In this document: one piece after another, positions 30,333 through 43,839 of the stretch
Numbering within the stretch: the first letter of the stretch is position 1
Layout of the letters: every line of letters starts with the position of its first letter
NCBI GenBank assembly: GCA_964035015.1
Contig: OZ035998.1
Span: 12,408,143 to 12,472,142, forward strand
Length of the DNA: 64,000 bases
Direction: 5' to 3'
DNA from: Corallium rubrum
Taxonomy: Eukaryota > Cnidaria > Anthozoa > Scleralcyonacea > Coralliidae
The notes under the pieces: generated by a model
Seen by the model: only the letters and a program-made list of their open reading frames with translations
The model's database searches: none
What the model was told of the DNA's origin: nothing
Position numbers and translations under genes: made by a program

Positions 30333-30722
30333 GTAAGTTTTGATTTCAACACTGTACATAAGGGCAAGCAAGTACATCATTGAATACAAAAATAGTAAGC
30401 TTATAGATAAAATAAACTTTAAAGCCAGAGCCAGCCAACAATTTATCGAAAAATAATATAAAAACATGATCCAAAAATTAACATCTTGAAAAATCAAAAC
30501 AATAGCTAAAAAACGAGATAAAGAGATGATATGGTATTTCAACTTTACTGGAAAGTCATCATCAAACCAAGTCAATGACTTTGGAATAAAATCAAAATAT
30601 TACCATTTCATCTTTTTGTCTTGTTTTTAATCCATATCTTGGACTTTTCAAGATGTTTAATTGTTATTTTTCTTTAACTAAAACTAGATATAAAACAATA
30701 TTTAACAGATTTGCAACGGAAT

Positions 30723-30933
<211 letters not shown>

Positions 30934-31489
30934 TTATAGTTAAAGATGTTGTTCCTACAGCACAAACATTTTTATTGACACACGTTGATAAATAATTTTT
31001 AGACTTTTAAAAAAGTAGTTTCTACCTCTATTTTTAGCATTATGATACAACATTTGTTTGAATGTGTACCAATCGCGAACCGAACCACAAAGTTTCCGAA
31101 CTTTTGCGACAGGGTGCGGAAATTTTCGAAAATCAGATAGATTTTTAAACGTAATTATTATCTATACTTTCAAAACTTATTTAGTATAATCGAAAGCTAT
31201 TCTGCCTTTTAAAAAATTATTCTATAACTATGACTATCTAGTTGGTTGAAATCAACGTATTTGACCATATTCACTTTTTGTTTTTTCCAGCTATTCAACT
31301 CCTGCATGATATTCAGTAAGGTTTTTTATAGCAACTATCCGTGATATCCGTCCCTATTTTTACATCAATTGTTTATGCTACTAACTCACTTTCTAGCTAA
31401 CCCTTTAAAATAAGGACGGATATCACAATACTAATACCGATACCGATACAGACACCAATACCAATACCAATCCACTAATACACACCAAT

Positions 31490-32250
31490 ACACACCAATG
31501 TACACCAATATACACCAATATACACCAATATACACCAACGTACACCAATATACACCAACGTACACCAATATACACCAACGTACACCAATATACACCAATG
31601 TACACCAACGTACACCAAATATACACCAATATATACACCAACATACACAAATATACACCGATATACACCAATATACACCAATATACACCAATGTACACCA
31701 GTGTACACCAATGTACACCAATGTAAACAAATATACACCAATATACACAAATATACACCAATATACACCAACGTACACCGATATACACCAATATACACCA
31801 ACATACACAAATATACACCAATATACACAAATATACACCAACGTACACCAATGTACACCAACGTACACCAATGTACACCAATGTACACCAATGTACACCA
31901 ATATCCACCAATATCCACCAATATAGACAAATATGCACTGATGTACACCAACGTACACCAATATACACCAATATACACCAATATACACCAATGTACAGCA
32001 ATGTACAGCAATGTACACCAATATGCACCAATGTACACCAATGTACACCAATATACACAAATATACACCAACATACACCAATGAACACCAACATACACCA
32101 ATGAACACCAACGTACACCGATATACACCGATATACACCGATATACACCGATATACACCGATATACACCGATATACACCAATGTACACCAATGTACACCA
32201 ACGTACACCAATGTACACCAACGTACACAAATATACACCAACACACTAAT
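31490..32250. repeat. ACACCAATAT minisatellite
   Basis: About 760 bp of units ACACCAATAT or ACACCAACGT and variants. Open frames on both strands (YTNIHQ / VYIGV) are by-products of a unit lacking stops. Confidence 0.92.
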
Positions 32251-32365
32251 AGACTGAAAGACCAATACACTAATAAACTAATACACTGAACTGCATGCCG
32301 ATATCCGTGATATCCGTCCTTATTTTGCCATTAGTTGTTTATGCTACTAATTCACTTTTCATCCT

Positions 32366-32915
32366 AAAACTACACTAAAACTACACTAACTTCACTAACT
32401 ATACACTAACTACACCAAAACCACACTAACTACGCTAAAATTACACTAACTACGCTAAAACTACACTAAAACTACCCTAAAACTACACTAACTACACTAA
32501 AACTACACTAACTACACTAAAACTACACTAACTACACTAAAACTACACTAAAACTACACTAACTACACTAAAACTACACTAACTACCCTAAAACTACACT
32601 AACTACACTAAAACTACACTAACTACACTAAAACTACACTAACTACACTAAAACTACACTAAAACTACACTAAAACTACACTAAAACTACACTAACTACA
32701 CTAAAACTACACTAACTACACTAAAACTACACTAAAACAACACCAAAACTACACTAAAACTACAATAATAAAACTACACTAAAACTACACTAAAACTACA
32801 CTAAAACTACACTAAAACTACACTAAAACTACACTAAAACTACACTAAAACTACACTAAAACTACACTAAAACTACACTAAAACTACACTAAAACTACAC
32901 TAACTACACTAATAC
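32366..32915. repeat. CTACACTAAAA minisatellite
   Basis: Alternating ACTACACTAA and AACTACACTAA units. This is the reverse complement of the array at 35985-37140. Confidence 0.92.
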
Positions 32916-33230
32916 ACTAAACTGCATGCCGATATCCGTGATATCCGTGATATCCGTCGTTATTTTTACATAACTTGCCATCCTACTAATTCACTTTCCA
33001 ACCCTTTAAAGATAAGGACGGATTGGACGGATACCACGGAGTTAGGCATGCAAATTAGTTTAAACTAATACTAATAACTAATTTGCATACCTATTTCCGT
33101 GATATCCGTGATATCCGTCCTCATTTTTGTGACTACCGCTGACCTGTCAGCGGTAGCCATAATGTCGGCGTGTTGCTTGCTTGCGCGAGTGTCTTGGACC
33201 GCACTTACGTCATACTCGTGCAGCCATCGC

Positions 33231-33333
33231 CATATAGTCAAGAAGATCGCCATTGATCGCCAAGTATTCGGGAAGTACTCGTCATATAGTCAAGAAGATC
33301 GCCATTGATCGCCAAGTATTCGGGAAGTACTCG
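33231..33333 (+). repeat. 52-bp tandem duplication
   Basis: CATATAGTCAAGAAGATCGC to GGAAGTACTCG is repeated exactly twice (33231-33282 and 33283-33333), just upstream of the possible first exon at 33404. Confidence 0.85.
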
Positions 33334-33403
33334 AGTTGTTTTCGTGGCCTCGCGGGGAATAAACTAAAGTGAATCAAGTCTTTGCATTTTGGTTGCTCTC
33401 TCG

Positions 33404-33496
33404 ATGACAGTTTTGATTTTTGAAAGTGTTAATTATTACTTTGCAAATCTTTTCTTCTTGGAACGGTTTCTGTCCACATTGATCAGTTTATACAAG
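33404..33496 (+). CDS. Possible exon 1 of an unidentified small gene
   Basis: ATG at 33404 opens 31 codons, hydrophobic and aromatic (ending LSTLISLYK), to a GTAAGA donor in phase 0. The exon at 34404 continues in phase 0 from a strong acceptor. The upstream 250 bp are GC-richer and contain TTACGTCA, a CRE-like string. No domain was recognised. It sits in the unique centre of the fold-back composite, so it may be a captured fragment. Confidence 0.32.
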
Positions 33497-34043
33497 GTAA
33501 GAAATAGTTTCAAAACTGTGACGTTGTTTATCTTATATACTATATACAAAATCTATAAGTACTTGGTCGGAAACAGGGTACTGTACTTATAGCAGTACTA
33601 GAAATATTCAGCTTTTGCTAGAAGTTGGGCCTTCAACCTTCTTTTATCGAAGAAACTGCTATATACCTAAATTATTTATAATGATAAAATCGCTTTATAA
33701 GTTTAATTTTGGTTGAATTGTGTGTTGTGCTCACTGGTCAGTGACTCATGTTTATACTGCATGTACACATGTATATATCATACACCAGTGCATACACTAA
33801 GAGTGAGAAGTGTGTTTTAACCAACTTCGAGCTAGATGTTTTGATATTAGAGCAAACACAACTTTCATTGTTTCGTGATCAAACAAATCAGGAAATTAAT
33901 TGTTTGATCACATACCAAACCTTTGTCTCGCTTATGATTTTCCTATCTGTTTGGTTTGTGAATTATTAATGAGTTCGAGAAGTATATATCACAGTGCCCT
34001 GTATTTACACTATATACATTGTATATAAGAAATTTATGCTAGG

Positions 34044-34325
34044 TGGTGTTGGTGGCATAGTGGTTAGTGCACGTGCCTTTCACCTCTGCGAGCTGGGTTC
34101 AATACCTGCACGGTGCAGTTATCTGATTAAAATAATTCACCTTGGCCACATGTGAGAACAGTGCTTCCAGTTTGACTCTACCAAACACCACAGGTTTCCT
34201 CCGGGTACTCAGGTTTCCTCCTATAGTAACACTGGACCAATGAGGGTGGGCCCTTACTGGACCTCTGAGGATAACTGTTTAGATATAACTGATAGAGTTA
34301 TCCAGTATAAATAAGGTTAGATTAA
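34044..34325 (+). mobile_element. tRNA-derived SINE, copy 2
   Basis: A-box-like GGCATAGTGGTTAGTGC, B-box GGGTTCAATACC and the same body as the copy at 16916, with an extra GGTTTCCTCC-containing segment. It lies in the intron of the possible small gene. Confidence 0.8.
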
Positions 34326-34403
34326 TTTAGTTTAAGCAAAATATGTTGGCTGTTACATAGACATTACAAAACCTTGACTTGGTGCTTTGTTTACTTGTTT
34401 TAG

Positions 34404-34595
34404 GTGTTGTTCAATATCTTGTATAATGAAATTAAGAAATCAACGTTTGTGGACACCAGAGCTGCTACAGTGATCCGTCCACAGAATAGTAGATACACCA
34501 GAAGTCTAACTCTTGTGAAAGTACTGAAACATTCTATAATCTACATGCCACCAATTGTATATTTTGATACTGAAATTGTTGTAAAGCTATTGTGA
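34404..34595 (+). CDS. Possible exon 2 of an unidentified small gene
   Basis: It follows ACTTGTTTTAG in phase 0 and gives 63 residues to TGA at 34593-34595. The two exons would encode 94 aa. No known motif; composition is basic in the middle (RAATVIRPQNSRYTR). It could be a decayed gene fragment. Confidence 0.3.
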   Translation: MLFNILYNEIKKSTFVDTRAATVIRPQNSRYTRSLTLVKVLKHSIIYMPPIVYFDTEIVVKLL

Positions 34596-34884
34596 AGTGC
34601 TGGGAAACTTAAAGCCTTGAATATGTTGAAAGCCTTGAAATGAAGAAATATATCTGTTGAAACTACAATACTGAGTATTGTTGTTCTGTGTTATTTAAAA
34701 TACTAGCAGAATCACAAAATATCAGTGATGTGGATTACACGTGAATGCCACTGACAGCATATTTATGGCAGGTAAAATGTTGTTTTGGAACACAATGTTG
34801 ATTATCTCGAGTGATTAATTCTTTGAAAGTTTTCAAGGCGATAATGTATATAGATTATTTTTGTGGAAACACCGCAATGAAAAT

Positions 34885-34965
34885 TATTTATTTGCTAACA
34901 GTTTCGGCCTGAGTCAACAGGCTGAAAGCTTAGCAAACAAATATTTTACGGTGTTTCCACAAAAA
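34885..34965. repeat. Inverted repeat, hammerhead-like relative
   Basis: ATTTATTTGCTAACAGTTTC, CCTGAGTCAACAGG and GAAAGCTTAGCAAAC correspond to the inner part of the motif near 9.9-10.06 kb, without a complete CTGATGA. Confidence 0.5.
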
Positions 34966-35394
34966 TAATCTATATGTATATGATCTGGGGTGAGTTGTAC
35001 AAAGCCAAGATAGCTTATCTAGTTGATAAGTTCTAGCTAAAGAACAGCACTAATCATGCTTTGAACAACCTAATATAAAATTTTATCCACTGATAAAATT
35101 TTATCCACAGTGGATAAAAGTTAAATTGGGTTGTTCAAAGCACCACTAGAGTGGTTCTCTAGCTAGGATTTATCCACCATTTTTTTGTGTGTGTCTGTGC
35201 TTTTCACACATTTTCATGCATTTCAAGTCTATATCTCGTTCTGTACTTAACAGCGGTAGTCACATGTACGCATTGCGTACCTATTTTTACATAACTTGCC
35301 ATGCCACTAACTCACTTTCCAACCCTTTAAAAATAAGGACGGATTGGACGGATACCACGGAGTTAGGCATGCAAATTAGTTTATTATCGTTATT

Positions 35395-35668
<274 letters not shown>

Positions 35669-35984
35669 ATAATAAACTAATTTGCATGCCTAACTCCGTG
35701 GTATCCGTCCAATCCGTCCTTATTTTTAAAGGGTTGGAAAGTGAGTTAGTAGGATGGCAAGTTATGTAAAAATAAGGACGGATATCACGGATATCACGGA
35801 GATAGGTATGCAAATTAGTTATTAGTATTAGTTTAAACTAATTTGCATGCCTAACTCCGTGATATCCGTCGAACCCGTCCTTATCTTTAAAGGGTTAAAA
35901 AGTGAATTAGTAGGATGGCAAGTTATGTAAAAATAAGGACGGATATCACGGATATCGGCATGCAGTTCAGTGTATTAGTGTAGT

Positions 35985-37140
35985 TTTAGTGTAGTTAGTG
36001 TAGTTTTAGCGTAGTTAGTGTAGTTTTAGTGTAGTTAGTGTAGTTTTAGTGTAGTTTGTGTAGTTTTAGTGTAGTTTTAGTGTAGTTAGTGTAGTTTTAG
36101 CGTAGTTAGTGTAGTTTTAGTGTAGTTAGTGGAGTTTTAGTGTAGTTAATGTAGTTTTAGTGTAGTTAGTGTAGTTTTAGTGTAGTTAGTTAGTGTAGTT
36201 TTAGTGTAGTTAGTGTAGTTTTAGTGTAGTTAGTGTAGTTTTAGTGTAGTTAGTGTAGTTTTAGCGTAGTTAGTGTAGTTTTAGTGTAGTTAGTGTAGTT
36301 TTAGTGTAGTTTTAGTGTAGTTAGTGTAGTTAGTGTGGTTTTAGTGTAGTTAGTGTAGTTTTAGCGTAGTTAGTGTAGTTTCAGCGTAGTTAGTGTAGTT
36401 TTAGCGTAGTTAGTGTAGTTTTAGTGTAGTTTTAGTGTAGTTAGTGTAATTTTAGTGTAGTTTTAGCGTAGTTAGTGTAGTTTTAGTGTAGTTAGTGTAG
36501 TTTTAGCGTAGTTAGTGTAGTTTTAGCGTAGTTAGTGTAGTTTTAGTGTAGTTTTAGTGTAGTTAGTGTAGTTTTAGTGTAGTTTTAGCGCAGTTAGTGT
36601 AGTTTTAGTGTAGTTAGTGTAGTTTTAGCGTAGTTAGTGTAGTTTTAGCGTAGTTAGTGTAGTTTTAGTGTAGTTTTAGTGTAGTTTTAGCGCAGTTAGT
36701 GTAGTTTTAGTGTAGTTAGTGTAGTTTTAGCGTAGTTAGTGTAGTTTTAGTGTAGTTAGTGTAGTTTTAGCGTAGTTAGTGTAGTTTTAGTGTAGTTAGA
36801 GTAGTTTTAGTGTAGTTAGTGTAGTTTTAGTGTAGTTAGTGTAGTTTTAGTGTAGTTTTAGTGTAGTTAGTGTAGTTTTAGTGTAGTTTTAGTGTAGTTA
36901 GTGTAGTTTTAGTTTAGTTAGTGTAGTTTTAGTGTAGTTAGTGTAGTTTTAGCGTAGTTAGTGTAGTTTTAGTGTAGTTAGTGTACTTAGTGTTGTTTTA
37001 GTGTAGTTAGTGTACTTAGTGTAGTTTTAGTGTAGATAGTGTACTTAGTGTAGTTTTAGTGTAGTTTTAGTGTAGTTAGTGTAGTTTTAGTGTAGTTAGT
37101 GTAGTTTTAGTGTAGTTAGTGTATTAGTGTATTGGTGTAT
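35985..37140. repeat. TAGTTTTAGTG minisatellite
   Basis: About 1.15 kb of alternating TAGTTTTAGTG and TAGTTAGTG units with TAGCG variants. It is the reverse complement of the 32366-32915 array. Confidence 0.92.
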
Positions 37141-37255
37141 TGGGCTATTGATATAAAACTTTGCAGTCAAATTTTCCTCGGTGAGTTTGAGGATGTGTGC
37201 AAGTAAAAAACACAGGAAAAATCTATAATTATCTATTCGATTTGGGGTTCGATCG

Positions 37256-37572
37256 ACTCTGTTTCACTTATGGAAATTTTTTACGGATTTTTATAAATAT
37301 TTGACTGGAAAAACAAGCAATATTATGAATATTTTTGTTTAGTTGTCTCCCAAGTGACACTGATGTAAACTCGGACAACAGAAATCATTATGACCGTGAC
37401 AACATAATAATGTAAACTCGGACAACAGAAATTATTATAACCGTGACAATGAACTAAAACAACTATATAATCACTTGGGAGATAACTAAACAAAAATATT
37501 CCGAATATTGCTTGTTCTTCCAGTCAAGCATTTATAAAAATCCGTAAAAAATTTCCATAAATGAAACAGAGT
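37256..37572. promoter_or_regulatory. 102-bp inverted repeat with paired direct repeats, candidate origin
   Basis: Arms 37256-37357 and 37471-37572 are near-perfect inverted copies (ACTCTGTTTCA ... CCAAGTGA on the left). The 113-bp loop has two 42-bp direct repeats (37361-37402 and 37408-37449, core ATGTAAACTCGGACAACAG) differing at four or so positions. It is located 105 bp before the helicase start. Initiator helicases typically bind repeated sites at an origin, so this is a reasonable candidate; it could also be a terminal hairpin or an unrelated MITE. Confidence 0.6.
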
Positions 37573-37588
37573 GAATAATAGGTGTTTA

Positions 37589-37642
37589 AAACCTCGAGGT
37601 TTCAAAATACGAATAATTAACGCACGAAAAGTATAAAAAACC
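37589..37642 (+). promoter_or_regulatory. Candidate promoter with perfect palindrome
   Basis: A 14-bp perfect palindrome AAACCTCGAGGTTT (37589-37602) precedes a TATA-like GTATAAAAAACC (37631-37642), 36 nt before the helicase ATG. A short upstream ORF begins at 37643 and ends at a TGA after eight codons. Confidence 0.4.
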
Positions 37643-37677
37643 ATGCACTTCGAAAGGGAACAGCCTTGAGTTGGAAC

Positions 37678-40092
37678 ATGTCGGTACAAAGAAGATGGAA
37701 CTACGCTTCGGAGCCAGCAAGGCAGCTCAATAGTATTGCCATTAAAAACTCTGCGAGATGTTATATAGCGCCGATCGTACAGCGTGGTTTAGCCGTATTT
37801 ACAGTGAAATGTGTATGGAGAGTTGCTGGTGGTCAAGATGGTTTATATAAAGCATGGGATATGATATCTGAGAAACGAAACGAGTGCGACACGAGCGTTG
37901 CCGACATACCAAACGTGGTATTCTTCTTTTCAGCAATCTCTGTTTTCGATGACAAAAATAAAAAGTCAGCAAATGAAGACAACGTGGAAACAGTTGAGTC
38001 AGAGCAGTCTTTGTTATCGGAAACGAATTCGTCGCAGAGTACAACTGTATACGAATCGGCCGTTCAGAAGAAACGATATCCAGCAATAAGTTATTGGATT
38101 GCAGTTACATCGAAAAATGGAGCACCGGTGCGAGACCTTTCGCTGAGAAAGGCGCTACTGAAATGCAACGTGGAGATCGACGCAAAAACGGTATCGTGTG
38201 GAAGAGGCAGTGAAGAAAAATACATTCGAGCTCTGTTCACAGTACTAAAAGATCATAGTTCTTCCTACATGCAGGAACTTGTCAACGAGTCGTGCCAAAG
38301 ATGCTTCGAGCAAACCTACGTGGACGTGACAGACGACGAACCAACCACAAGTCAAGTATCTGAGATTGTAACTATAGAAAAAGTTGTAAGATTCACAATG
38401 GTGTCAAAAGCGTCGAAGCAGATCGAAACGGCGTTAAAAAGTCTTCGACGGTCTGGTCTCGAGCTCGATATAGCTGGGATGCCTGCTGAAATTGTCGCGG
38501 AAGAAGAAGCCAGTCTAACAAGCGAAATAACTACCGATCCATGTGTCATACTTATCCACGACATCGAGAAAATCATGAAAAAGTTGAATTTTGCCCTTTA
38601 CAAGGGAGAGGTTTACAAATTGATTCCCGGAGCTAAATTCACCTACAAATTGAAATGTGACGTCGAGAAGTTTATCGGCACACTCGAAGGCAACGCGGTA
38701 TTAAAAGCCAAAATTATCAAGTACGGGAAGCGTGTCTTCAACAAACTCAGTAATCCGGACAGTCAAGCCATACGACAAATCAGAGTGGATTATAACCTAA
38801 TCGAAATAAGCGACGGTCACTGTTTGTCCCTCAAAGACAGAGAGATTACAAGCAACGCAATACCAGAAGCAGAAATCGGAATGATTACCCCACGAGCCTT
38901 CTCCGCCTACGACGGTGCCATGCAGAATTGTGAAGCAAAGTTCTTTCAAGAGGTGCTGGAGGACAGTCTTTCGTCTGAAGAGATCAGTTCATTCTGTGAA
39001 GATTTCCTTCGCCTTCTACACCACAGAGGAAAGACGCACAAGGAGAAAGTGCCATTTCTTATTGGAGAACCCAACAGCGGTAAGACGAGTTTGTTCAGTC
39101 CAATTCAAGGTATTGTCCACCCAAAACGCATAGCAAAGATAACCAAGCAGCGCGAATTCAACAAAGCGATGATCAACGATGATTGCGAAGTTATATTTCT
39201 AGACGAAGCTCACGTGACAATGATGGATCTTGACGACTGGAAGATTCTAACGCAAGGCGGTTGGACTGCTCACGACGCAAAGTTCAAGACATGCCAAGGA
39301 TTTGTCAACAAATGCCCAATGCTTATAGCGTCGCAAACCGACATGGATTTTGGTAGTACAGTGGACAACGACGCTATGGATACCCGATTGCGCAGATACA
39401 AGTTCAAAAAACTGCCTTCTCCAGAGCCTGATGCTTTTACTTGGCTGAAAAAACATCCCGTAGAGTGCATCATCTGGGCAATGAACAACGCAGGTGGCAA
39501 CGCGCGCGACAGTCATGTTCAACACGAAAATGGTACGGATGGCGAAGATGCGAATGAAAAACTGACATGTGCCGAGGAACAGGAGTTGTTCGAATTGAAT
39601 GTAAGATCGATTATTGAAAGCGACGACGCTGATAGTGAATACGAAGAAGCCTTCGAAGATGACGCAGCTGGACCAAGTCAAGAGGCGACGAGTGACTCGA
39701 TTGGTTCGTCGGCTCAAGCCTCCTCGCAGCGAGCAGTGGTTGATGTGGAAACACGAGTGCAAGGAGAATTGGAAAAGTGTCACGAGACGTCGTTGAGATT
39801 CAAGCATTTGAGCGGAATAAAAAATAAGCTCTTGCGAGAAAAGCAAAAACGCCTATGCGAATACAAGGAACGGATGGTGAAGCAAAAGCTGTTAACAGCT
39901 GAAGAATGCGAACAGTTCGACGACCAAGAAACTATCCCGGAAGCCCTAAAGAAGAAAATTCACGAGAGACGGTGGAAGATCATCCGAGAAGATAATGCAA
40001 AGAGGAAGCAAAATATTGAAGAAGAAATGGAAGCAGCATTTGCCAACCCTTGGCTGCACAAAACGGAGCGTGACCTCATCGAAAATCAATAA
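37678..40092 (+). CDS. SF3 helicase replication protein
   Basis: ATG at 37678 gives 804 aa with no introns (the frame opens at 37666 with TTG). The C-terminal half carries the superfamily 3 helicase set, residues counted from this ATG: Walker A GEPNSGKT at 463-470, Walker B with VIFLDEAH at 505-512, motif C PMLIASQ at 547-553, and an arginine-rich DTRLRRYKF at 568-576. SF3 proteins such as papillomavirus E1 and parvovirus NS1 are hexameric initiator helicases. Motif C normally ends in Asn; here it is Gln. The N-terminal 450 residues lack a visible HUH nuclease. After the helicase come an acidic segment (~615-670) and a highly charged, probably helical tail. The frame ends at TAA 40090-40092, but homologous-looking coding continues in the same frame beyond it. 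The role is inferred: unwinding the element's own DNA. Confidence 0.8.
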   Translation: MSVQRRWNYASEPARQLNSIAIKNSARCYIAPIVQRGLAVFTVKCVWRVAGGQDGLYKAWDMISEKRNECDTSVADIPNVVFFFSAISVFDDKNKKSANEDNVETVESEQSLLSETNSSQSTTVYESAVQKKRYPAISYWIAVTSKNGAPVRDLSLRKALLKCNVEIDAKTVSCGRGSEEKYIRALFTVLKDHSSSYMQELVNESCQRCFEQTYVDVTDDEPTTSQVSEIVTIEKVVRFTMVSKASKQIETALKSLRRSGLELDIAGMPAEIVAEEEASLTSEITTDPCVILIHDIEKIMKKLNFALYKGEVYKLIPGAKFTYKLKCDVEKFIGTLEGNAVLKAKIIKYGKRVFNKLSNPDSQAIRQIRVDYNLIEISDGHCLSLKDREITSNAIPEAEIGMITPRAFSAYDGAMQNCEAKFFQEVLEDSLSSEEISSFCEDFLRLLHHRGKTHKEKVPFLIGEPNSGKTSLFSPIQGIVHPKRIAKITKQREFNKAMINDDCEVIFLDEAHVTMMDLDDWKILTQGGWTAHDAKFKTCQGFVNKCPMLIASQTDMDFGSTVDNDAMDTRLRRYKFKKLPSPEPDAFTWLKKHPVECIIWAMNNAGGNARDSHVQHENGTDGEDANEKLTCAEEQELFELNVRSIIESDDADSEYEEAFEDDAAGPSQEATSDSIGSSAQASSQRAVVDVETRVQGELEKCHETSLRFKHLSGIKNKLLREKQKRLCEYKERMVKQKLLTAEECEQFDDQETIPEALKKKIHERRWKIIREDNAKRKQNIEEEMEAAFANPWLHKTERDLIENQ

Positions 40093-40620
40093 AAATTTGA
40101 GAAAACCGATCCAGCATTGTACAAGTCCCTTTGCGAGATTGGCGTACACAAGCTGTGGTTATATCATTCTTCCAAAAAGTACGACGTCAAAAGCAAAGTG
40201 GCGATCGCAAAACGCGCAAAGATGCTGAAGGACTTTGGTTACAACGCAAGTGTCACGGATCTTTGGTCGGTCCCGCTACTTTTTGACCGTTCCACTTCAA
40301 GCCACCCGCATTACGAGAGCGGGCCCGAGGACGGCTTAAGCGGTTTGACTCAACCAGATCCGCCCCGAAAATCGTCGCAGCAACGTGTGTCGCAGCAACG
40401 TATACCGCCACCAGCCTTCAATAAAAACAAAACGCATAGCCATCCTATCACAAAAGACATTCTCAGTCAACCAACACTGGTCCGAACTTGGAAAACTGCT
40501 AATAACGACGAGGACAACCGAGACCGCTTATTCACACGAAGTCAACCTGTTCCTAAGCGAAAGAAATTGTGCAAAACCGTTAACCAAAGTAAAATCGAGG
40601 ATTTTTTTCGTCCAAAATAA
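40093..40620 (+). pseudogene. In-frame C-terminal continuation with PIP box
   Basis: Immediately after the helicase stop the same frame stays open for 175 codons to TAA at 40618-40620 (an ATG lies at 40117). It starts with a compact helical region (SLCEIGVHKLWLYHSSKKYD), then a disordered Pro/Gln/Ser-rich linker, a basic stretch (PKRKKLC) and finally QSKIEDFFRPK. QxxIxxFF is the canonical PCNA-interacting peptide, and PKRKK resembles a nuclear localisation signal. I infer that it was originally the C-terminus of the helicase, cut off by one nonsense change; a separate gene or stop-codon readthrough is possible. Confidence 0.65.
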
Positions 40621-40786
40621 CTGAAAAGAAAAACATGCTATAACTTATAAATTTGTTTTTCTCTTTTCGTTGTTTTTTTTTGCGCTCGCGTGTGTGTGTG
40701 CGCGCACGTAAAATGTGTACAAATGGTAATCTAAAGTAACTCACAAAAAGCAGTTGTCGCGTAATAAATTTTAATAATAGTAACAT
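40621..40786. terminator. Convergent 3' ends with poly(A) signal
   Basis: A 166-bp gap separates the two convergent coding regions. An AATAAA for the + strand gene lies at 40763-40768. A GTGTGTGTGCGCGC run occurs near 40689-40706. Confidence 0.5.
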
Positions 40787-42466
40787 TCATTTGTTTAATC
40801 CCGCAGTTGTTTTGCCAAATGATTTTGACAAGGCTCGCTTTTGTAGAGAATCAGCAGTTCGTCCTTCCAGAAACGAAATCTCGGAATCTCGTAAAATTGC
40901 TGTCCACTGGCCAAACCCATGTTTGTCGATGCCTCGCTTTAGGACGCAATCTTCTTGCGCGGTAAACCGCAAACGTTTTGCTCTTTCGTTATTCGGTGTA
41001 GAGACCAAACTGCAGGTTTCCGAAGCTGTGGCGAACAGCTGAGACGGACTTCGTCCGATTGCGGGAAATTGTATTTCTGTCGATATCTCTAATTCCTCCT
41101 GTGATGACTCGGACGATGTGAAAAGTGATTTGTTGTATTTCTTACGACTTTTTTGCGACGTTTCGACATCCGATTCCGATTGAGATAGTCCTAACGTTTT
41201 ACGCAGTTTTTTCTCGACTCCACTTCTTTTGTTTTGTTCTAATTTCTGAAGACTATCCCGCGCTTTAGTCGCCACTTCGCGTGAACGTTTCTTTTTGTAA
41301 TAGATCTGCGCAACACTCGAACTGTGCTTTTGGTCTTCCGACACCGCTTCCCGCTCCTGAGGTGACAACGATTTGTCACTTTCCGTCTCGATGATCTGCC
41401 GAAGTCTAGTCGGATGAATGTATTTGCCGATTGCGTCGTAGACCAATTTCGACATCATATCGGACAGCTTGTCGTACTGCGTGCCGTTGCGGGTAACCAG
41501 AAGGTAGTCACACTTGGGTTTCAAACGTGGTCGGATGTATTTGACAAAATCGTCGATGATTCGAAGACCGGTACGATCCAAGATAAGCGAATCGAAGCCA
41601 TACTTTGCCGCGGTTTTGAATTGACGCTGGTCAATAAAGCCACCGTTCTGTTTCGCAGTCTCGATCATTTCTAGCGTCAAGTACTGGTACGTCATCGGCC
41701 GTGACCCTTTCACGTTGATGAACAAGTAATTGGCGATAAACTTGTTGGCAAACGATAGATCGTAAGGGCTGACCGATGACGCTAAGTCGCCGTTCGTTTT
41801 GCATCGTTCGAGAATTCCCTTATATCTTGGCAGATGGTACGGTATGACCTCCAGCATTTCTTCCATAGTCGCCCAGTTCCCTTTGGCTTCTAATGTATCG
41901 ATATCCATGTCTTTGGTCCACTGCACCTTCATCATTTTACCGATGCACTTTTTGGCTCGTTTCAAATGAATTTCCGTCACACTGACATTTTCCAGAACTT
42001 TGCGACAAGGTAATTTTATTCTTCGGTAATCGATTAAATCGGCAATCGCATTCAAGTACGCCATTTGGCCAGGATAACTCAACTTCCATTTTTCTTCCAT
42101 TGTCGTTATAAATTTGCATAGGATTGTTGGCGAACCCAGGCAAAAGTCTACGATATCGTCCGTCAACACCGCATCTTCATCTTCATACGATATCTTTAAG
42201 AACTTTAGACATCTCTTGGCGGTTTGATTAGCTTGTGTCATACTTTTCCCACCACCTGCAGCGCTGTTTAACCACGATGCAAATTCGCTACCTGCTGGGC
42301 TGGACATGGAGTAAGATGGGATATTCGATGTGTCGAAGCTGCGTCTTCCTTTCTCTGGTTTTTGTGCCAGATTTGCCGGTTTGCTCTGCAACTGATGGTG
42401 CCCCGACGTGACGGTTGTCGATGGTTTTTCGTCAAAGTAATAGAACCATGGGTGTATTGAATGCAT
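40787..42466 (-). CDS. Tyrosine recombinase with Myb/SANT domain
   Basis: 559 aa from the ATG at 42466, without introns. A helical core-binding-like region occupies roughly 75-250. The catalytic part shows the YR order: R256 in GSRPMTYQYLT, an FVKYIRP strand region (308-313), HPTRLRQ at 351-357, then KHSSSVAQIYY with H381 and Y389/Y390. This R...HxxR...H...Y arrangement, especially H-S-x(3)-A-x(2)-YY, resembles animal Crypton-type recombinases. A charged linker leads to a Myb/SANT-like domain (about 499-546: FTAQEDCVLKRGIDKHG, QWTAILRD, GRTADSLQKRA), similar to telobox-type DNA-binding domains. It probably integrates or resolves the element. The coding frame extends upstream past one in-frame TGA, so this ATG is probably not the original start. 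Confidence 0.75.
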   Translation of the reverse strand: MHSIHPWFYYFDEKPSTTVTSGHHQLQSKPANLAQKPEKGRRSFDTSNIPSYSMSSPAGSEFASWLNSAAGGGKSMTQANQTAKRCLKFLKISYEDEDAVLTDDIVDFCLGSPTILCKFITTMEEKWKLSYPGQMAYLNAIADLIDYRRIKLPCRKVLENVSVTEIHLKRAKKCIGKMMKVQWTKDMDIDTLEAKGNWATMEEMLEVIPYHLPRYKGILERCKTNGDLASSVSPYDLSFANKFIANYLFINVKGSRPMTYQYLTLEMIETAKQNGGFIDQRQFKTAAKYGFDSLILDRTGLRIIDDFVKYIRPRLKPKCDYLLVTRNGTQYDKLSDMMSKLVYDAIGKYIHPTRLRQIIETESDKSLSPQEREAVSEDQKHSSSVAQIYYKKKRSREVATKARDSLQKLEQNKRSGVEKKLRKTLGLSQSESDVETSQKSRKKYNKSLFTSSESSQEELEISTEIQFPAIGRSPSQLFATASETCSLVSTPNNERAKRLRFTAQEDCVLKRGIDKHGFGQWTAILRDSEISFLEGRTADSLQKRALSKSFGKTTAGLNK

Positions 42467-42628
42467 GTGCTTTCTCAGTCCTCGTTTTGTCCCGAATCCT
42501 TCGTGTTCACAACTCTCGACTGGACATTTGTACAGAGAGTTCTCGCTTGGTCAAAGGTGTAATCTCTTCGGACGTTCTCGTGCTCCAGCAATCTTGGACC
42601 AGTCAATCGGAATTCTGCCACCTTGCAT
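42467..42628 (-). pseudogene. Recombinase N-terminus with C2H2 finger, cut by a stop
   Basis: Upstream of the 42466 ATG the frame continues to an ATG at 42628. Counted from there, codon 26 is TGA (42551-42553). Downstream of it come YKCPVESC, then GFGTKRGLRKHMHSIH, fitting C-x4-C-x4-F-x5-L-x2-H-x4-H (C35, C40, H54, H59). The finger straddles the 42466 ATG, so starting there removes both cysteines. TGA could have arisen from CGA by a CpG transition. A TATA-like CATAAATAGG lies on the minus strand near 42662-42671. Confidence 0.6.
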
Positions 42629-42732
42629 TTCTGTTTATCTTAGCCTTGTACATGTGTTCCCTATTTATGCTAAAGGAGGTGAACCTCTATTGTAACATCA
42701 AGCCAATGAAATCGCAAAAACGTCGAGCATGA

Positions 42733-43130
42733 TCGAGCGTGTTCTTATTATTCAAGCTTATTATTATGAATAATTTTGAAGTTAATTTGATATTAATTCT
42801 ATTGCTGCGTGCAAACAATCGTAATATGATGTTTGACAAATTTTCTTTGTCAAGAGTTTTTCCTGAAGCGGAACAATGTAAAGAGGAACATCTGAGAACA
42901 TATTGTTCCTCACTTAAAGCGGAACGTTTTGGACTTCGCAGCTAAATCGGAACATTTTGTTCTGCTTTGCACTATCGGAACGAATTCATGCATTCCTTTT
43001 TACGAAAACGGACCAAAATGTGCCGTTAATAGATATCGGAAGCAAAAGAAAACGACAAATATTTTGTTCTCTAACGAATCTAAAAAAACAACTATCTAAA
43101 CTATCTTGAAGTCAAGACAAAGTCTACGTT
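42733..43130. promoter_or_regulatory. Upstream region of the recombinase with GGAAC boxes
   Basis: Five GGAAC boxes (42870, 42885, 42921, 42949 and 42977) plus an inverted GAGGAACA / TGTTCCTC pair (42883-42911) lie in ~110 bp. They could be regulator or recombinase binding sites, or chance. Nothing else was seen here. Confidence 0.3.
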
Positions 43131-43250
43131 CCCATTAACAAACTAAGGGTTGAAAAATTCAAAGCAAACCAATGTCACGCCAAAGGTAAATGCCCAAATT
43201 TTAAAGAAAACTGGACTGTTTCCTAAAGGAACACAAACTTTCCCTATCTG

Positions 43251-43439
<189 letters not shown>

Positions 43440-43527
43440 TCAAAGATTCACTTGACAACGTGCAACCGTATAAATAACTTAAAAAACAAACATTTCTTTG
43501 TAGTCAGAAAATAATTTTGTTCTTTAG

Positions 43528-43839
43528 ACTTGCGTCTTACTGGATTTAGCAATCGACCAAATCGTGGACGCGTTGAGATACTTTATAATGGGGAATGGGG
43601 CACGGTTTGTGACGATTCTTGGGACATTAATGACGCTCGGGTGGTTTGTCGGCAGTTAGGATTTCCCGATGTACTTCGCGATCTAAATGGGGAAAATGTT
43701 CCAGATGGTATAGGCAAAATATGGCTAGATGAGGTAGACTGTAATGGGAGAGAACTTTTATTATCCAACTGTACTCATAATGGATGGGACTCTAGCGATT
43801 GCTACCATGATGAAGATGCAGGGGTGGTTTGCAAAAGAG
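43528..43839 (+). CDS. SRCR-domain protein, SRCR exon 1
   Basis: A complete scavenger receptor cysteine-rich domain in one exon (phase 1 to 1). It has LRLTGFSN, GRVEILYNGEWGTVCDDSWD, ARVVCRQLGFPD, IWLDEVDCNGRE, LSNCTHNGW, and DCYHDEDAGVVC. The six cysteines correspond to positions C2, C3, C5, C6, C7 and C8 of the SRCR nomenclature (group A set). The calcium-site-like acidic residues CDD and DE are kept. The acceptor is TTCTTTAG and the donor GTAAGT. This is the best-conserved domain of the eleven. SRCR arrays are extracellular ligand-binding modules, often in innate immunity. The gene runs to 62.8 kb and beyond, with no terminal exon in the window. Confidence 0.95.

Follow-up and report, generated by a model that had tools for sequence, protein, structure and literature searches.

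A putative capsidless transposon of Corallium rubrum that combines a tyrosine-recombinase-like gene with an SF3-like helicase gene and lies in microsatellites

Among eukaryotic DNA transposons, Cryptons, especially the animal CryptonA elements, rely on a tyrosine recombinase (YR) and have no capsid, and formation of a circle followed by reintegration has been proposed for them (Kojima and Jurka, 2011; PMC3212892). According to that paper, animal Cryptons have neither a C-terminal domain nor terminal repeats, short edge repeats occur in fungal and oomycete groups, and YR sites typically consist of two inverted repeats, each 11-13 bp long, that flank 6-8 bp; the word helicase is absent from its text. 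Some Polinton-like viruses encode a YR and some a superfamily 3 (SF3) helicase, several of these viruses reside as integrated copies in the DNA of their hosts and the donor is thought to circularise (PMC4642659), and endogenous nimaviruses of crustaceans possess a YR family with a C2H2 domain associated with insertion into a microsatellite, (TAACC)n (PMC10871703). A literature search over open-licence PMC papers, Repbase not being covered, returned no description of a capsidless animal element with both a YR and an SF3 helicase. Here we describe an element of Corallium rubrum (Cnidaria; Anthozoa) found in a stretch of 64,000 nucleotides, hereafter the window (contig OZ035998.1 of assembly GCA_964035015.1; C8:12408143-12472142, the whole genome assembly comprising 474 Mb in 312 contigs). 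We consider it likely that this element is a capsidless two-gene animal YR transposon which circularises, integrates into microsatellites via a short core and probably replicates with its SF3 helicase and host enzymes.

A preliminary description of the window had read this locus as an element pairing an SF3 helicase with a YR, and this reading is supported by the distribution of the two genes in the genome. For this survey, 56 helicase matches were merged to 51 loci, and recombinase matches (all 76 rows of one search and 12 window-family rows out of 83 of another) to 84 loci, these lists being lower bounds. At 45 of the 51 listed helicase loci, a recombinase gene is found downstream within 20 kb: on the opposite strand at 557-716 bp in nine loci (family A, to which the window copy belongs), on the opposite strand at 3.6 kb in one, and on the same strand at 3.2-9.8 kb in 35. 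Chance would place a recombinase near a helicase at about 0.006 per locus, a figure computed with 76 recombinase loci on either side, in which count 43 of 51 helicase loci had a partner. Helicase and recombinase thus belong together, and co-occurrence in such fixed arrangements indicates that neither is an unrelated host gene. The sole recombinase locus lacking a listed helicase that was examined, C53, has a helicase 68% identical to that of family B over 392 amino acids. The idea that families B and C have no recombinase was rejected: the first stretches held none, and longer stretches showed it. Identical lengths of the longest contig for three pairs of helicase and recombinase relatives (P0076/P0114, 15684; P0077/P0150, 78386; P0059/P0134, 81048) hint, with no control, at co-occurrence in other assemblies.

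Alignment of several copies, a check named in the preliminary description, fixed both the ends and the target repeats. The matches of three family A copies (L032, L034 and L036) to the window stop inside the right (AAAG)n array, the C15 copy (L038) begins at the left one, and the switch from the AAAG repeat to TTATAG occurs at the identical point in the window and C15 copies. Because similarity between family A copies starts and stops at these arrays, the edges are placed at about 30934 and 43252, giving an element of about 12.3 kb with a nested insert and about 10.2 kb without it, in place of the span of 37250 to 43130 first assigned. Its flanks are (AAAG)n microsatellites at 30721-30933, within which the similarity of L038 stops, and at 43253-43439, both read as target.

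The same behaviour was found in the other families, each with its own repeat. Sixty flanking bases were scored, and a score of at least 0.8 for the family's repeat was counted as presence. By this measure, the target repeat adjoins the left end in 14 of 16 copies of family B (AAC), 12 of 14 of family C (GAT), 2/2 of family D (AAC) and the single copy of family E (GAT); for family A (AAAG), it adjoins seven of eight right ends and both left ends. By comparison, not one of 4000 window segments scored that high with any of the repeat units. The misses correspond to impure arrays (L019, 0.75; L065, 0.72), a mixed purine array (L034, 0.77) and two tandem junctions (L022, 0.62; L066, 0.43). Left out of the count were L074 (N), L055 and L056 (the stretch begins within a purine array, L056 being the copy of L082) and L081, in which the motif of the right edge was not found. 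In the C1:47.6M copy the left edge is not reached (N), and similarity of the C28 copy ends within the left tandem repeats. Both sides were read in six copies. The repeat stands on both sides in the window and C15 copies (A), the C8 and C15:3.78M copies (B) and the C23 copy (C), the right side of the last being impure as judged by eye; in the sixth, C1:58.15M (B), the right side is just ACAACAAAG ahead of unique DNA. Array length and purity differ among copies. The C23 copy is flanked by gene-like frames with a high content of acidic or proline residues (L045, 827-1336; tail of L054), so that its (GAT)n target may belong to a host gene.

Tandem copies reveal how the ends meet. In L022, the right end of one family B element is joined to the left end of the next via ACAACC, with no array, and the 570 bp preceding this core match the right end of the C8 copy at every position; by reading, L066 shows the same type of junction for family C via GATGACC. 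As these junctions join the ends without an array, the arrays do not belong to the element. The junction core resembles the target-repeat unit, and the arrangement of right end, core and left end is compatible with a free circle. Seven tandem same-strand recombinase pairs and two helicase pairs were counted. Concerning the ends themselves, left-right inverted similarity is significant in family A (equalled in 2/2000 shuffles), and the right ends of B and C resemble each other (1/2000). Motifs of the GGAA(C) type stand 17-25 bp from the edge, in inverted orientation, in all six ends of A, B and C. In addition, GGAAC/GTTCC is dense near the right end, with 9 occurrences against 0.77 in shuffles in A (window 42640-43252, a region of candidate accessory binding sites), 12 against 1.28 in B and 14 against 0.94 in C; it is not dense at the left end of A (1 against 0.23), and the window outside the element holds 0.8-1.0 per kb.

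The recombinase is encoded by an open reading frame (ORF) of 559 amino acids on the minus strand (40787-42466), in which the motifs pointed out beforehand, R256, HPTRLRQ and KHSSSVAQIYY, are present. The protein has the full catalytic constellation of YRs: five residues (R256, K284, R354, H381 and Y390) are shared by all 123 aligned sequences, and H351 is found in 122, a single sequence having Q. The pattern R-K-HxxR-H-Y was reached by only 1 of 20000 permutations of columns conserved at 97% or more, a threshold picked after the test of strict invariance had failed on H351. The H381-Y390 spacing of 9 is that of six of the seven YRs fetched (IntS has 10), and R256 and K284 are 28 apart compared with 23-27 in the fetched YRs, among which the K of Cre is misaligned. 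Based on these residues, their spacing and the insertion pattern, the protein is predicted to be a tyrosine recombinase.

Two putative DNA-binding parts accompany this catalytic core, both conserved in the relatives. The SANT-like part suspected earlier corresponds to a C-terminal Myb/SANT domain, matched in the window protein with an E-value of 7e-5, slightly under Pfam's cut-off, and by 23 of 23 aligned relatives. The best PDB sequence matches are of Myb type, with the telomeric-repeat-binding factor TRF2 first (E 1e-4), a suggestive likeness given that the protein would target tandem repeats. The C2H2-like zinc-finger part is likewise present, although not within the ORF as first implied: it lies at the N-terminal side (42467-42628, minus strand), upstream of the ATG at 42466, and in the window copy an in-frame stop divides it, with its start at 42628, from the recombinase. 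This stop is missing in L032, L034 and L036. All organisms named among the best 120 of 947 recombinase relatives are anthozoan (Oculina, Nematostella, Montipora).

The second gene, an ORF of 804 amino acids on the plus strand (37678-40092), indeed contains the motifs GEPNSGKTS, VIFLDEAH and PMLIASQ on which the SF3 assignment had been founded. Since open frames of 999-1001 amino acids exist in three other copies of the window family, the stop at 40092 represents damage to the window copy; beyond it, the same frame remains open from 40093 to 40620 and ends in the PIP-box-like QSKIEDFFRPK, the very letters that end a 98%-identical relative (P0001). In a Pfam scan of 33 aligned members with an E-value limit of 1, PPV_E1_C was matched by 12 (best 3e-7), Parvo_NS1 by 18 (best 1e-4) and DUF5906 by 15 (best 1e-6). 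The family B protein matches PPV_E1_C at 3e-4, and that of family C matches PPV_E1_C at 1e-3 and DUF5906 at 3e-5; precomputed domains PF19263 or PF00519 are present on 35 of the 113 relatives listed. The protein can therefore be described as SF3-like, many relatives matching SF3 families, mostly weakly. A weak point of this assignment is that the P-loop GTPase family MMR_HSR1 is also matched, by 23 of the 33 members (best 2e-3). A PDB sequence search with the helicase returned mainly P-loop proteins, aligned where the Walker A motif lies (best E 0.025). Pfam scans gave no convincing family match for the N-terminal part.

A PIP-box-like pattern occurs in the last 40 amino acids of 18 of the 113 helicase relatives, compared with an expectation of 0.135 from shuffled sequences. 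As a general feature of the helicase it was rejected, since it is limited to these 18 and the B and C helicases end differently, in PQLSSQSYWTK.... By reading, the B and C genes (L018, L044) seemingly have a short first exon of the RPGRPRKE type, presumably AT-hook-like, and one GT-AG intron; the family A gene is intronless. The organisms named among the 113 relatives are all anthozoan (Actinostola, Oculina, Acropora, Desmophyllum, Nematostella), and those named among 75 relatives of the family B helicase are the octocorals Dendronephthya and Paramuricea.

Several copies are nearly identical. Eleven recombinase matches of family B, including the query's own place, are 100% identical after rounding. 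The ratio of nonsynonymous to synonymous substitution rates (dN/dS) is 0.06 between the B and C recombinases, with saturated dS, and 0.40 and 0.09 between two A and two B helicases, respectively, both values coming from few changes. The window copy itself is damaged, with one in-frame stop per gene; both genes have open frames in other copies. This damage, the true extent, the microsatellite targets and the head-to-tail junctions add to what the preliminary description contained.

The left part of the window copy (31336-37139) is non-coding and consists of tandem repeats with units of 10-20 bp and large inverted repeats, and the ORFs of at least 90 amino acids within it are repeat-derived. A foreign insert of 2.1 kb (33129-35263) is nested there; by reading, it has exact 13-bp inverted ends, GTGACTACCGCTG and CAGCGGTAGTCAC, and the stretch is missing from the C15 copy (L035). 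A large cluster of tandem and inverted repeats is present in each of families A, B and C (window 31336-37139; L039, L044, L048 and L049), its sequence in A differing from that in B and C; such clusters are a possible origin or an assembly-prone region. Upstream of the helicase, the structured hairpin noted beforehand is a long palindrome (37256-37572) with two 102-nt arms, 93% complementary, and a folding-energy z-score of -20.8 against 100 shuffles. It is also found in other family A copies and is possibly a replication origin. An Rfam search of 30700-43500 returned no match. Besides the helicase and the recombinase, the ORF listings of the window copy from edge to edge and of the family B stretches read contain no non-repetitive ORF of at least 90-110 amino acids, capsid profiles not having been searched. 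Just right of the element, at 43530-43800, begins a frame resembling a cysteine-rich domain, presumably of SRCR type.

Based on these data, a mechanism can be proposed. The tyrosine recombinase would act on the two element ends bearing inverted GGAA(C)-type motifs and join them around the short core, leading to a circle. The core of the circle would then recombine with a similar sequence inside the microsatellite used by the family in question, whether (AAAG)n, (AAC)n or (GAT)n, the zinc finger, the Myb domain and the subterminal GGAAC motifs probably guiding the recombinase. The SF3 helicase would probably open DNA at the repeat and palindrome region and recruit host replication enzymes, in some members via its C-terminal PIP-box-like motif, so that copy number rises. 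The circle, strand exchange by the YR, helicase-driven replication, the part of host enzymes and the repeat or palindrome region as origin are what we infer from the genomic record.

Several points weigh against this proposal. No circle, origin or replication was observed. Six of the 51 helicase loci lack a listed recombinase (one of them, C15:3.78M, looks internally deleted since its right edge is reached about 4.4 kb downstream with no recombinase found), and left-right inverted similarity is not significant for B (705/2000) or C (384/2000) alone. The profile searches called for in the preliminary description yielded SF3 families among the helicase relatives and no match to known YRs. The window helicase alone has no SF3 match in Pfam, and the B and C matches are below Pfam's cut-offs. 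For the recombinase, no YR family was matched in Pfam, PHROGs or NCBIfam (the PHROGs and NCBIfam matches being at chance level), hhalign comparisons with Cre, lambda Int and a seven-member bacterial and phage YR set were negative, with profiles of low diversity (Neff 1.8-2.0), and the R354-H381 spacing is 27 compared with 22-23 in known YRs.

Four other explanations have to be weighed. The one which fares best, possible but doubtful, is a YR transposon moving by excision and integration only, in which the helicase would serve for regulation or as a help in recombination and not for replication. That no origin or initiator nuclease has been demonstrated, and that the N-terminal part of the helicase has no convincing family match, fits this scenario; the repeat clusters present in all of A, B and C, and the numerous and near-identical copies, speak for replication instead. 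SF3 helicases of small viruses are replicative, which also counts against an auxiliary role. It is unlikely that the element derives from an endogenised DNA virus (Polinton-like, virophage-like or nimavirus-like) which was integrated by a YR, lost its capsid genes and was spread by later infections or a helper. Such an origin would agree with the joint presence of an SF3 helicase and a YR in some Polinton-like viruses (PMC4642659) and with the insertion of nimavirus YRs into telomere-type microsatellites (PMC10871703), but neither protein has a confirmed relative in IMG/VR, and the ORF listing of the window copy and the family B stretches read, made without capsid profiles, offers no further non-repetitive ORF of that size.

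It is more improbable still that the recombinase is an unrelated DNA-binding protein with a chance likeness to the catalytic pattern: the failure of libraries and profiles to recognise a known YR is what such a protein would give, and against it stand the conservation of that pattern in 122 of 123 sequences, its rarity under permutation, the H381-Y390 spacing and the core-type insertion without an array at tandem junctions. Lastly, the notion that the microsatellites belong to the element or grew from its ends after insertion, without target preference, accommodates the varying length and purity of the arrays and is the least probable of the four, in view of the 6-7 bases which join the ends in L022 and L066 and of the impure, copy-specific arrays outside the edge.

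With a capsidless transposon of two genes retained as the preferred explanation, one genome contains a naturally occurring series of related recombinases that differ in the simple repeat they target. The ways in which a YR acquires a new target, and a role of microsatellites as safe harbours for mobile DNA, thereby become testable. Furthermore, the presence of a replication-type helicase on an animal YR transposon that lacks a capsid is relevant to the question of how transposons and small DNA viruses arise from each other.

The SF3 ATPase domain of parvoviruses and papillomaviruses (PPV_E1_C and Parvo_NS1 in Pfam) is matched among the helicase relatives; these viruses are encapsidated and are not known to encode a YR. 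The nearest precedents are provided by Cryptons, Polinton-like viruses and nimavirus YRs, and none matches in full. With Cryptons (PMC3212892), the present element shares a YR and, by ORF listing, the absence of capsid genes; its edges recall the short edge repeats of the fungal and oomycete groups, and its junctions are close to the YR site layout given there. Unlike animal Cryptons, it has an SF3 helicase gene, a C-terminal Myb domain (23/23), a microsatellite target and, in family A, inverted ends (2/2000 shuffles), and the relationship to DUF3504 that marks Crypton-type YRs was not found, none of 23 recombinase members giving a hit to this family in a Pfam scan with an E-value limit of 1. 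The capsid proteins and packaging ATPase of Polinton-like viruses were not seen by ORF listing, capsid profiles not having been searched. The YR of endogenous nimaviruses resembles that of the present element in its C2H2 domain and microsatellite insertion, but their genomes measure about 300-400 kb and hold many genes (PMC10871703), compared with edges about 10-12 kb apart here. We lean, if only slightly, towards a separate superfamily of animal DNA transposons, capsidless, relying on its own SF3 helicase and host enzymes, and equipped with a YR whose target has repeatedly switched between microsatellites. If so, these elements would be to eukaryotes what integrating plasmids are to bacteria, and they might connect YR transposons with viruses that use an SF3 helicase.

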